Made by a program: the position numbers and the translations under genes. DNA of 64,000 bases from Thermococcus thermotolerans (GTDB taxonomy: Archaea; Methanobacteriota_B; Thermococci; Thermococcales; Thermococcaceae). Location of the stretch: positions 1,116,001 through 1,180,000 of the forward strand of contig NZ_CP102602.1 in the NCBI RefSeq assembly GCF_024707485.1. Reading direction: 5' to 3'. Positions 10,537 through 13,895 of this stretch are shown here, in pieces. The notes beneath the pieces were generated by a model, which was not told the DNA's origin, ran no database searches, and saw only the letters and a list, made by a program, of their open reading frames with translations. Position 1 is the stretch's first letter; the number at the start of each line of letters is the position of its first letter.

Positions 10537-10623
10537 TGGCGCCGGGACGGGGATTTGAACCCCGGTGTCCATACGGACACGGGCTCTCAAGGCCCGCGCC
10601 ATCCCAGGCTAGGCGATCCCGGC
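10537..10623 (-). tRNA. tRNA-Ser (anticodon TGA), overlapping an upstream CDS
   Basis: On the minus strand GCCGGGA/TCCCGGC form the acceptor. The stem CGGGC/GCCCG encloses CTTGAGA with anticodon TGA. The long variable arm GTGTCCGTATGGACAC confirms a class II serine tRNA, and CCA is encoded at 10537-10539. Its first 15 bases also encode the last codons and the TAG stop of the upstream methyltransferase gene. Confidence 0.96.
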
Positions 10624-11196
10624 ATACACGCGGTAGCCGCTCCCCTTCGCCAGCTCTCTCACTTCGGTGAAGTGGTCATCCATTAAAGCCTTAATATACT
10701 TTGCCCCCTGCTTCGTCTTAATCACCAGTTGCAGGAGGCCTCCATCGTTGAGATGCCGGGGAGCGTTTATAACTATTTCCCTCAGCACTTCCTTCCCCGC
10801 GTGCACCGGGGGGTTAGTGATGATTGCGTCGAACTTCTCGCCCCTAACGGGTTCGTAGAGGCTTCCCCATCTCACCTCGGCGTTTCTAACGCCGTTGATT
10901 TTTAAATTTTTCCTCGCTATGCTGACAGCCCTTCTGTTCACGTCGGTCATGACAACGTAGTCCACGAAGCGCGAGGCGACGATTCCTATAGCACCGTAGC
11001 CGCAGCCCAAATCCAAGACGCGCCAGCCATCATCAAGTACCATGCTCTCTATCAACAGTTCAGTTCCTCTGTCGAGCTTCCCGAAGGAGAAGACACCGCT
11101 GGCGGTGATGAACTTGAAACACTGACCTCTAACGCAGACCTCTATGGTCTTCGTCTTCAGCGGGACGTTCGGCTCCTCGGAGTAGTAGTGGCTCAT
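10609..11196 (-). CDS. Class I SAM-dependent RNA methyltransferase, RsmC/TrmR-like
   Basis: 195 residues with a small N-terminal lead (FKFITASGVFSFGKLD), then motif I VLDLGCGYGAIGIVA (about 66-80), the acidic TDVNRRA ribose loop, and the catalytic NPPVHAGKE. NPP[VFY] is typical of N-methyltransferases on guanine (RsmC family, m2G) or small-molecule homologues. ATG 11196 is chosen because a TATA box lies about 28 bases upstream, so the mRNA is probably leaderless. The stop codon TAG lies within the D arm of tRNA-Ser. Confidence 0.88.
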   Translation of the reverse strand: MSHYYSEEPNVPLKTKTIEVCVRGQCFKFITASGVFSFGKLDRGTELLIESMVLDDGWRVLDLGCGYGAIGIVASRFVDYVVMTDVNRRAVSIARKNLKINGVRNAEVRWGSLYEPVRGEKFDAIITNPPVHAGKEVLREIVINAPRHLNDGGLLQLVIKTKQGAKYIKALMDDHFTEVRELAKGSGYRVYAGIA

Positions 11197-11254: not shown

Positions 11255-11533
11255 TTATGCCTTTGAACTTCGCCTAAACCCCACAAAAACCGTCACTATA
11301 ACCACCACAAGCCATACCCATCCAGCCGCACCCAAATAAGCTGACGGAATGCTTCCGTTGCGGGTTCTCCAGACGAGGAAGCCCACGAGCACCATGAAGA
11401 TTGCCATCTCCAGCTGGATTACCCACGAAACCCTGCCACGACCCGCGAATGAGTCCCTAAAGGCAAAAAGTAGGAAGAGGTAAATAAGCCCACCAATTAT
11501 CGCCGTGTATGCACCGTACTCCAGCCAAACCAT
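11255..11533 (-). CDS. Small three-helix membrane protein, possible immunity partner
   Basis: About 92 residues with three hydrophobic segments: AYTAIIGGLIYLFLLFAF, WVIQLEMAIFMVLVGFLVW and AAGWVWLVVVIVTVFVGF, plus a short basic tail. No family is recognised. Its start (ATG 11533 or 11539, behind GGTGAGG) lies only 5-11 bases after the stop of the cysteine-rich polypeptide gene, so translation is probably coupled. In bacteriocin operons the gene next to the peptide is often a small membrane immunity protein; that role here is inference. Its base composition is poorer in G+C than that of the ribosomal genes. Confidence 0.65.
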   Translation of the reverse strand: MVWLEYGAYTAIIGGLIYLFLLFAFRDSFAGRGRVSWVIQLEMAIFMVLVGFLVWRTRNGSIPSAYLGAAGWVWLVVVIVTVFVGFRRSSKA

Positions 11534-11543
11534 GTTCATTCCC

Positions 11544-11921
11544 TCACCATAATGTTCCACATTTAACCTTGATAAACCCTAGCGTATAGATGCATACTTG
11601 CATTGATGGACAATATCCATAGCATCCTGCAAGTGCCCCCCATGACCCAAATGCTCCAGCCGCAATACAGGCCAAGCACCCAGTTCCTGTTAAACAAGCT
11701 GCGGTGCACCCAATGACTATTCCATATAATACGCCACAGCAGGCTCCAACTATAACCCATGACGGAGCTTCTGGTTGGGTACATATGAACTTTATAGAGA
11801 TGAGAGGATTCAAAGGGAATTCACACGCAGTCAATGAGTCCATACTAACGGTTACCTCAATCGTCCGGTATTGGTTATATTCTGCTGGAAGTTTTAGCTT
11901 TAGTCTCTTGCACACTTCCAA
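11544..11921 (-). CDS. Cysteine-rich halocin-C8-like polypeptide, apparent frameshift at 5' end
   Basis: The open frame encodes 125 residues from TTG 11921, but its true start is probably GTG 11985 in another frame, reached through a one-base shift (see the next entry). Residues 10-50 form a beta-rich, Cys-poor propeptide-like part. Residues 55-125 are small, glycine-rich and hold ten cysteines (61, 62, 72, 76, 82, 85, 100, 104, 110, 121), including GCTAACLTGTGCLACIAAG. Halocin C8 is also a roughly 76-residue, ten-cysteine C-terminal peptide cut from a secreted precursor; the resemblance is in composition and architecture, not a proven alignment. The three-helix protein lies directly downstream. 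Confidence 0.6.
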   Translation of the reverse strand: MEVCKRLKLKLPAEYNQYRTIEVTVSMDSLTACEFPLNPLISIKFICTQPEAPSWVIVGACCGVLYGIVIGCTAACLTGTGCLACIAAGAFGSWGALAGCYGYCPSMQVCIYTLGFIKVKCGTLW

Positions 11922-11985
11922 ACTGAAGACTCAACAGCATGGCGAGCAACAACACGGCGCCAGCCTTCTTGATCCAACCCTTCAC
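11875..11985 (-). pseudogene. Signal-peptide segment of the cysteine-rich gene in a shifted frame
   Basis: From GTG 11985, six bases behind GGGGTG, the frame reads MKGWIKKAGAVLLLAMLL and then SLQFGSVQETKAKTSS before TAA at 11877-11875. That is a textbook Sec signal: lysine-rich n-region, leucine core, polar c-region. The downstream cysteine-rich frame is open from 11930, so the two overlap by about 50 bases and one extra base (a +1 shift, perhaps in the AAAA near 11893-11896) would separate them. Either the gene is decayed, the shift is programmed, or there is a sequencing error. A TATA-like CTTTTAAGG lies at about 12031-12039. Confidence 0.5.
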
Positions 11986-12193
11986 AGGGAACACCCCACA
12001 AGGTTATCACAATATGTAACGTTAAACTCCTTAAAAGCTTTTCCAATTACAAGTTTAAATTAGTTCCGTTTTTTTTTTCGTAGGATTTTCAATTTCCAAC
12101 CATATCAAAACGACGAGAATGAAACGAAAGAAGCCAGAGTAAAAGAATGAACAAAAGAATACAAATGATGTTACTTGCACGCCAAAGTCTTGA

Positions 12194-12830: not shown

Positions 12831-13835
12831 CTACCAGAGTTTGGGATACCAGTCCCTCGGCATGAAGACCTTGTCCACGTCTACCGCTATTCCCTTGCTC
12901 CTCTGGAGCATCTCACCGCTCGTCATGGTGGCCTTACCGAGTGCCACCAGCTCGTCCTTGAGGGTCATGACGGCAACGAGATCACCTTTTTTGATGCCTT
13001 TATGGAGCTTGACTATCCCCGGAACTGCCAAATCTGCGCCGTGAGTTACCGCCGCAACGGCTGAATCTCTAATCCACACCTTCGGCAGGTGTTCAACGGC
13101 CTTCTCCATCGGCTGTATCGCCTTCCTGAAGTACTCCTCGATACCGTCCTCCTTCCAGAAGTGGTAGTAGTCCACCAAGTCGTGGAGCGTCACGAGGGTT
13201 TCGTCCTCCTTGAACGGCCCACTCCTCGTTCTCCTCAGCTCGGCCATATGGGCACCGACTCCAAGGGCCAGGCCGATGTGGTGGATGAGCGACCTGATAT
13301 AGGTTCCGGCCTCAACCCCAACGCGGAAGAGCACGTTCTTGCCGTCTATCTCCAGAATCTCGATGTAGTAGACCTTTCTCGTCCTCAGCCTTCTCTTGAC
13401 CGCGCTTCTGAGTGGAGGCCTCTGGATTATCTCACCCTCAAATTCCTTCATAACCGCGCGGATTTTGTCCTCTGGAACGTCGCCGTGGAGATGCATTAAA
13501 GCAACGTACTCCTTTCCGGCTGGTAGGAGAGCCTGAACGACCCTCGTTGCCCTCTCAAGGGCAACCGGCAAAACGCCGCTGACCTTGGGGTCGAGGGTTC
13601 CGCCGTGGCCGGCCTTGTTGAGGTCGAAGAGCCTCTTGATCCAGGCAACGACCTCATGACTCGTAGGGCCAGGGGGCTTGTCGAGGTTTATTATCCCGAA
13701 CTGCATGTGCATCTCCATCGGTCTCTTCCCCGGTGGAAAGCCCCACTTTGGATTCGTCTCGGCCTTCTCGTCCTTAACCAGGACATCTCGCTTTATGTCA
13801 GCCGGAAGGATTCTCCTCACTTCGTCCCTCGCCAT
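12831..13835 (-). CDS. cbf5: tRNA/rRNA pseudouridine synthase Cbf5 (TruB family)
   Basis: About 334 residues. The TruB catalytic motif AGHGGTLDPKVSGVLPVAL has the catalytic aspartate (residue near 82). Later come the KEYVALMHLHG strand and AGTYIRSLIHHIG motif, and a C-terminal PUA domain (about 245-325, HGADLAVPGIVKL). Cbf5 is the catalytic subunit of the H/ACA RNP with Nop10, Gar1 and L7Ae and can also form tRNA pseudouridine 55. GGTGATGCTC upstream fixes ATG 13835. In related archaea cbf5 directly follows L14e; here an SDR gene is between them. Confidence 0.95.
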   Translation of the reverse strand: MARDEVRRILPADIKRDVLVKDEKAETNPKWGFPPGKRPMEMHMQFGIINLDKPPGPTSHEVVAWIKRLFDLNKAGHGGTLDPKVSGVLPVALERATRVVQALLPAGKEYVALMHLHGDVPEDKIRAVMKEFEGEIIQRPPLRSAVKRRLRTRKVYYIEILEIDGKNVLFRVGVEAGTYIRSLIHHIGLALGVGAHMAELRRTRSGPFKEDETLVTLHDLVDYYHFWKEDGIEEYFRKAIQPMEKAVEHLPKVWIRDSAVAAVTHGADLAVPGIVKLHKGIKKGDLVAVMTLKDELVALGKATMTSGEMLQRSKGIAVDVDKVFMPRDWYPKLW

Positions 13836-13895
13836 GAGCATCACCCGATGAGCGTTATCGCCCTAAGTTCGGGATAGCGCCTTATAAACCTGAGC

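Follow-up and report, generated by a model that had tools for sequence, protein, structure and literature searches.

A locus in the 64,000-nucleotide stretch of the Thermococcus thermotolerans genome that was analysed here (contig NZ_CP102602.1; this whole stretch is referred to as the window) is probably a degraded member of a polymorphic, cassette-swapping family of bacteriocin and immunity genes of the Thermococcaceae; at this locus, the toxin is dead and the immunity gene has been kept. The first-pass annotation had proposed an archaeocin and its immunity protein at this place. This proposal is supported for the family, in which secreted precursors are accompanied by a type-specific membrane neighbour, but the window copy is broken (Table 1).

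Table 1. Features of the locus and of its flanks (positions in the window).
Feature	Position	Strand	Remarks
Presumed Cbf5/TruB-like pseudouridine synthase	12831..13844	-	Borders the exchange site upstream
Conserved non-coding control region	12031..12165	-	Ends at BRE/TATA box GGAAAAGCTTTTAAGG, 12044-12029
5' precursor remnant	11875..11985	-	36 codons covering the signal peptide and the residues just after it; stop TAA 11877-11875
Deletion junction	~11880-11895	-	Net 578 nt of pro-domain absent relative to L046, frame lost
Cys-rich C-terminal region, type T3	11544..11840	-	97 residues, 12 Cys, stop TGA 11546-11544
Three-helix membrane protein, predicted T3 immunity	11255..11533	-	Intact, 92 residues
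Presumed methyltransferase-like protein MSHYYSEEPNVPLKTKTIEVC	10609..11196	-	Borders the exchange site downstream

A precursor gene split by a deletion

The signal-peptide start and the Cys-rich part, which the first-pass annotation had joined into one product, are both real but are read in different frames, with the TAA codon of the first frame intervening. The signal peptide starting at GTG 11985 reads VKGWIKKAGAVLLLAMLLSLQFG, and the complete frame, VKGWIKKAGAVLLLAMLLSLQFGSVQETKAKTSSRI, contains almost no propeptide. The signal, VKGWIKKAGAVLLL, is devoid of RR (judged by motif only). The Cys-rich frame is open and Gly/Ala-rich. The ten cysteines initially counted are present in the last ~65 residues, but the final 97 residues harbor 12, all of which are kept in the six T3 copies (6/6). 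The Cys-rich part has matches displaying 72-93% identity in five other genomes, where the open frames span 215-362 codons. Orthologues of the membrane protein were clearly recognised (E < 1e-12) at 15 places other than the window locus. The existence of these relatives indicates that the Cys-rich part and the membrane ORF are more than chance. Searches of Pfam and NCBIfam with either ORF returned no match.

The nearest intact relative, L046, encodes a precursor of 342 amino acids in a single frame and was used as the reference for defining the deletion. Window position 11896 and upstream aligned with the signal-peptide part of L046 (79% identity between the remnant and the precursor start), and position 11879 and downstream aligned with the C-terminus (98% identity). 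Where L046 has 594 nt, the window has 16; the resulting net loss of 578 nt is out of frame and makes the window copy a dead producer. A base-calling slip was ruled out as the cause of the frame break since the loss is far too large. What looked like a 35-nt insertion 5' of the window start codon is explained by a deletion in L046, as other relatives share the spacing of the window. In the intact loci L046, L047, and L065, one gene encodes a secreted precursor with its C-terminal peptide. The split window copy, in contrast, cannot yield a secreted precursor.

A +1 translational frameshift could in principle fuse the signal peptide to the C-terminal peptide, leaving out the pro-domain. The two frames overlap by ~50 nt (11930-11881), the promoter and the signal peptide are retained, and the C-terminal frame is intact and nearly identical to that of L046. 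We nevertheless regard a functional frameshifted product as highly improbable, because intact relatives are read in one frame and require no frameshift, because the frame break coincides with a large deletion, and because other broken copies are frequent in the family.

As initially reported, a three-helix membrane protein follows closely: its ORF begins 4 or 10 nt past the stop of the Cys-rich frame, and alternative starts at ATG 11539 or GTG 11560 would extend it. Comparison of this gene with its counterpart in L046 gave a dN of 0.20, a dS of 0.79, and a dN/dS ratio of about 0.25, which indicates purifying selection. The dS of the adjoining T3 C-terminus, measured against the same locus, was 0.14. 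This difference suggests a mosaic history, with a recombination breakpoint between the T3 C-terminus and the immunity gene. Unequal divergence of the C-terminus and the immunity gene from the same relatives was also seen when window positions 11255-11840 were compared with both L046 and L047. At least 7 of the 15 places harboring an orthologue of the membrane protein have no adjoining T3 peptide (contig-end cases excluded). The window immunity gene probably still works, which would make the strain a resistant non-producer for T3. The window genome contains four other copies with the same pro-domain and retains intact precursors of types T2 and T6 and of a second scaffold described below, so that the strain may still produce other peptides.

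Interchangeable C-termini and type-specific membrane proteins

Intact relatives are single-frame precursors of 337-355 residues consisting of a signal peptide, a sequon-rich pro-domain of ~230 residues, and a Cys-rich C-terminus. Homologues keeping both the signal peptide and the cysteine pattern, on whose existence the first-pass annotation had staked its reading, were therefore found. Searching with the pro-domain only retrieved many more copies than the Cys-rich query. A pro-domain profile built from 45 members was run against 115 genomes of the phylum and matched 29, which belong to three genera and are all Thermococcaceae. Scanning of the GTDB contig collection gave Thermococcus or Thermococcaceae records only, and no relative was found in the viral contigs searched. 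The pro-domain had no match above cutoff in Pfam, NCBIfam, or PHROGs and nothing convincing among PDB sequences; an AlphaFold2 prediction from few sequences reached a pLDDT of 37. The pro-domain contains 5.7 N-glycosylation sequons per 100 residues, compared with 1.3 after shuffling and 0.07 in the C-terminus, a contrast indicating that pro-domain and C-terminus are distinct modules. An Asp residue located just N-terminal to the C-terminal domain is invariant and likely marks the processing region. Most intact relatives start with MNWRKTAF or MEGWAKKVG, and a few (L075, L077) have RR, as assessed by motif. No dedicated protease or exporter gene was apparent beside the peptide/membrane-gene pairs.

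Alignment at the pro-domain boundary distributed the C-termini into 11 clusters (T1 to T11) between which BLAST gave no link at the threshold applied. The C-termini contain 6, 8, 10, 12, 16, or 20 cysteines, with one containing 7. The count is even in 45 of 46, as expected if all cysteines pair; related sequences are not independent in this tally, although the pattern spans types. Median identity between types was about 0.7 for the pro-domain and 0.27 for the C-termini, and some pairs combined a 94% identical pro-domain with a C-terminus of 28% identity. Displaced cassettes were detected behind other toxin/immunity genes in L055 (T9) and in L086 and L087 (T3), and all three begin close to one motif inside the pro-domain, MNIAP. 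In L061 and L081, a T6 C-terminus follows a pro-domain whose 3' half has diverged.

The displaced cassettes raise the possibility that the window remnant is itself a silent C-terminus/immunity cassette acting as a recombination donor, as do orphan modules of CDI/Rhs systems. The four other pro-domain copies of the window genome could serve as partners, and the unequal divergence of the C-terminus and the immunity gene is that of a mosaic. This role is rather doubtful, since the almost complete absence of pro-domain homology 5' of the window C-terminus would make the remnant a poor donor, and recent decay explains it equally well.

All 46 C-termini are followed by a same-strand ORF with predicted membrane helices, called by a simple hydropathy threshold, that starts within 300 nt. 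These downstream ORFs were homologous in 91 of 127 within-type pairs (T1 alone accounting for 66 of the 127) and in none of 908 between-type pairs, and none of 2000 permutations was as good. The within-type misses are partly simple: T2 comprises subtypes that differ in immunity family, and two small ORFs are present in T4. The downstream proteins belong to many unrelated families and range from 62 to 327 residues. The combination of a pro-domain ~70% identical across types with type-specific membrane genes argues that immunity probably sits on a separate gene. In two genomes (L185, L191), an immunity gene of known type is located directly behind the shared promoter region without a peptide gene. 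An array in genome G080 (L090 and L188, G080:C1:236400-243000) gathers immunity genes of types T6, T9, and T3 together with remnants, and contains no intact peptide gene of its immunity types.

Covariation with a secreted peptide would also be compatible with the membrane partner being a receptor, in which case the family would form a variable recognition or signalling system (kin discrimination, adhesion, mating). A secreted peptide and a cognate membrane protein would also suit a pheromone and its receptor. Hypervariable VARTIG modules, proposed for self/non-self recognition, do exist in Thermococcales (PMC8416519). They belong to the same archaeal order as the present loci and likewise pair a hypervariable secreted protein with a membrane partner and undergo shuffling by recombination, but they are built on Ig domains in large proteins (PMC8416519). 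A Pfam scan of 45 members of the present family revealed no Ig domain above cutoff, with a weak Big_4 match in two members (best E of 0.1). The recognition reading is unlikely, as the same scaffold also carries halocin C8 domains, orphan membrane genes are frequent and gathered in arrays, as immunity would predict, and downstream proteins so diverse in origin and length are unlike a receptor family.

A shared control region at few chromosomal sites

The control region is common to nearly all loci of the family at all sites. It was aligned in 48 places, with 71-92% nucleotide identity, and is mostly located 150-190 nt 5' of the start codon of the family member. When searched for across the order, it was matched about 70 times, with 39 of 94 genomes represented. 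The strongly conserved ~130-nt non-coding block 5' of the TATA box also precedes other secreted-protein modules, as well as immunity genes standing alone. Its role may lie in common regulation of these loci, or it may provide homology for exchange.

Family loci recur at few fixed chromosomal places across genomes. The Cbf5/methyltransferase site, occupied by T3 in the window, harbors T2, T3, T4, T5, T6, T7, T9, T10, or T11 in different genomes. Further recurrent sites adjoin genes that we take to encode Taw3-like, isoleucyl-tRNA synthetase, and MTA-phosphorylase-like proteins. Most sites harbor several types and most types occupy more than one site. A simple vertical history for each site was rejected, since pro-domain similarity tracks neither the chromosomal site nor the C-terminal type. 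A tRNA gene is present near the exchange site of the window (10540-10623, minus strand), between the methyltransferase gene and a ribosomal protein gene.

The same control region also precedes other modules. In L092, L093, L190, and L192, a two-gene module encodes a secreted Cys-containing protein of ~290-350 residues and a partner of ~225 residues; in the first three of these loci, the module occupies the Cbf5/methyltransferase site. L186 and L187 encode secreted proteins with a DGCSPIAASMVVAYY motif, presumably reminiscent of C39-type peptidases, followed by a Cys-containing partner.

Relation to halocin C8 and proposed mode of action

The locus had first been described as halocin-C8-like. 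This likeness extends to the T2 siblings carrying the same pro-domain, which match TIGR04449 (halocin_C8_dom, cutoff of 24 bits) at 33-45 bits and include an intact 326-residue paralogue in the window genome (G000:C1:1424749-1425720). It does not extend to T3: neither the window sequence nor its intact relatives matched TIGR04449, and T3 precursors did not match NF040679. Profile-profile comparison of T3 with the C8-type profile gave a probability of 0.9%, the T3 profile being shallow (effective number of 1.2), and T1 C-termini gave nothing against the same C8-type profile. By the TIGR04449 and C8-type profile tests, T3 displays no detectable similarity to any characterised bacteriocin. An expansion of the halocin C8 family has reportedly been published by Makarova et al. 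(2019, mBio), and some T2 members may be included in it.

Like halocin C8, the intact precursors are secreted, measure ~280-340 residues, and end in a Cys-rich peptide, with predicted immunity at the same locus, and the T2 siblings bear the C8 domain itself. The differences are that the pro-domain is another one, that T3 has 12 conserved cysteines in 97 residues instead of ten, that the window copy has no twin-arginine signal (by motif only), and that C8 is here one of at least 11 interchangeable C-termini. Immunity to halocin C8 is provided by HalI, the propeptide of the same gene (PMC11509114). In contrast, predicted immunity is here borne by a separate type-specific membrane gene, an arrangement different from that of halocin C8. 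That T3 could be a diverged C8 domain is suggested by the common pro-domain, the Cys-rich Gly/Ala-rich composition, the similar size, and the presence of C8 in sibling precursors. Lack of a TIGR04449 match and of profile-profile similarity to C8-type C-termini makes this origin very unlikely. The window T3 peptide is, from these comparisons, organised like a halocin-class peptide but appears to lie outside the C8 domain family.

A second precursor scaffold of 255-274 residues was observed in L129 (G000:C1:1620715-1621497), L127, L128, and L145-L153. It often adjoins the MTA-phosphorylase-like gene and carries halocin C8 or other Cys-rich C-termini; the copy in the window genome scores at the TIGR04449 cutoff. 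By eye, the downstream protein of this scaffold resembles the one encoded behind the T2 paralogue, a likeness suggesting that the cassette is common to both precursor scaffolds.

The organisation also recalls CDI/Rhs polymorphic toxins, in which a constant N-terminal part is combined with a variable C-terminal effector part, a cognate immunity gene is located directly downstream (here deduced from type-specific pairing, protection being predicted), and displaced orphan cassettes and orphan immunity genes occur. CDI/Rhs toxins are, however, large contact-dependent proteins with enzymatic activities, whereas the present precursors are small, signal-peptide-exported, and end in Cys-rich hydrophobic peptides. 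No trafficking or contact-dependent delivery domain was detected above cutoff in the pro-domain with Pfam, NCBIfam, or PHROGs. The haloarchaeal precursors HalH4 and HmHapP are secreted in a latent form and activated by extracellular proteolysis, HalH4 and HalC8 releasing a C-terminal active fragment (PMC12893001). Proteolytic activation of a latent secreted precursor is likewise predicted here, the likeness residing in the mode of activation.

In intact members, the shared promoter region would drive synthesis of a precursor of ~340 residues exported by its signal peptide. The conserved pro-domain, probably N-glycosylated, would carry and mask the Cys-rich hydrophobic C-terminal peptide until cleavage near the conserved Asp frees it. 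Held by disulfides, the peptide is predicted to attack the membrane of related archaea, and the type-specific integral membrane protein encoded by the adjoining downstream gene would protect the producer. The C-terminus and the immunity gene would form a cassette recombining onto the conserved pro-domain at few fixed chromosomal sites. In the window, the out-of-frame deletion removed the pro-domain and abolished precursor synthesis, leaving the immunity gene intact and the locus as a putative intermediate between the producer and the orphan-immunity loci of relatives. Taken together, we consider it rather probable that Thermococcales possess a polymorphic bacteriocin system in which a glycosylated carrier pro-domain, one control region, and at least 11 peptide/immunity cassettes swapped at few fixed sites confer strain-specific killing and resistance; halocin C8 would be one of these cassettes, also present on a second carrier, and the window would have captured a producer turning into a resistant non-producer.

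Apart from halocins and sulfolobicins, almost no peptide weapons of archaea have been described (PMC10105419). No paper describing the present precursor family was found in the literature searched, a search to which the C8-type listings of Makarova et al. (2019) do not belong. The family suggests that cassette exchange of the CDI/Rhs kind may act on small secreted peptides. It also provides a concrete, testable set of candidate pairs of archaeocin and immunity gene from hyperthermophiles, for which stabilisation by many disulfides is predicted. Genetically tractable laboratory strains exist in this group. The question of how Thermococcales compete could be approached by pairwise killing and protection assays.
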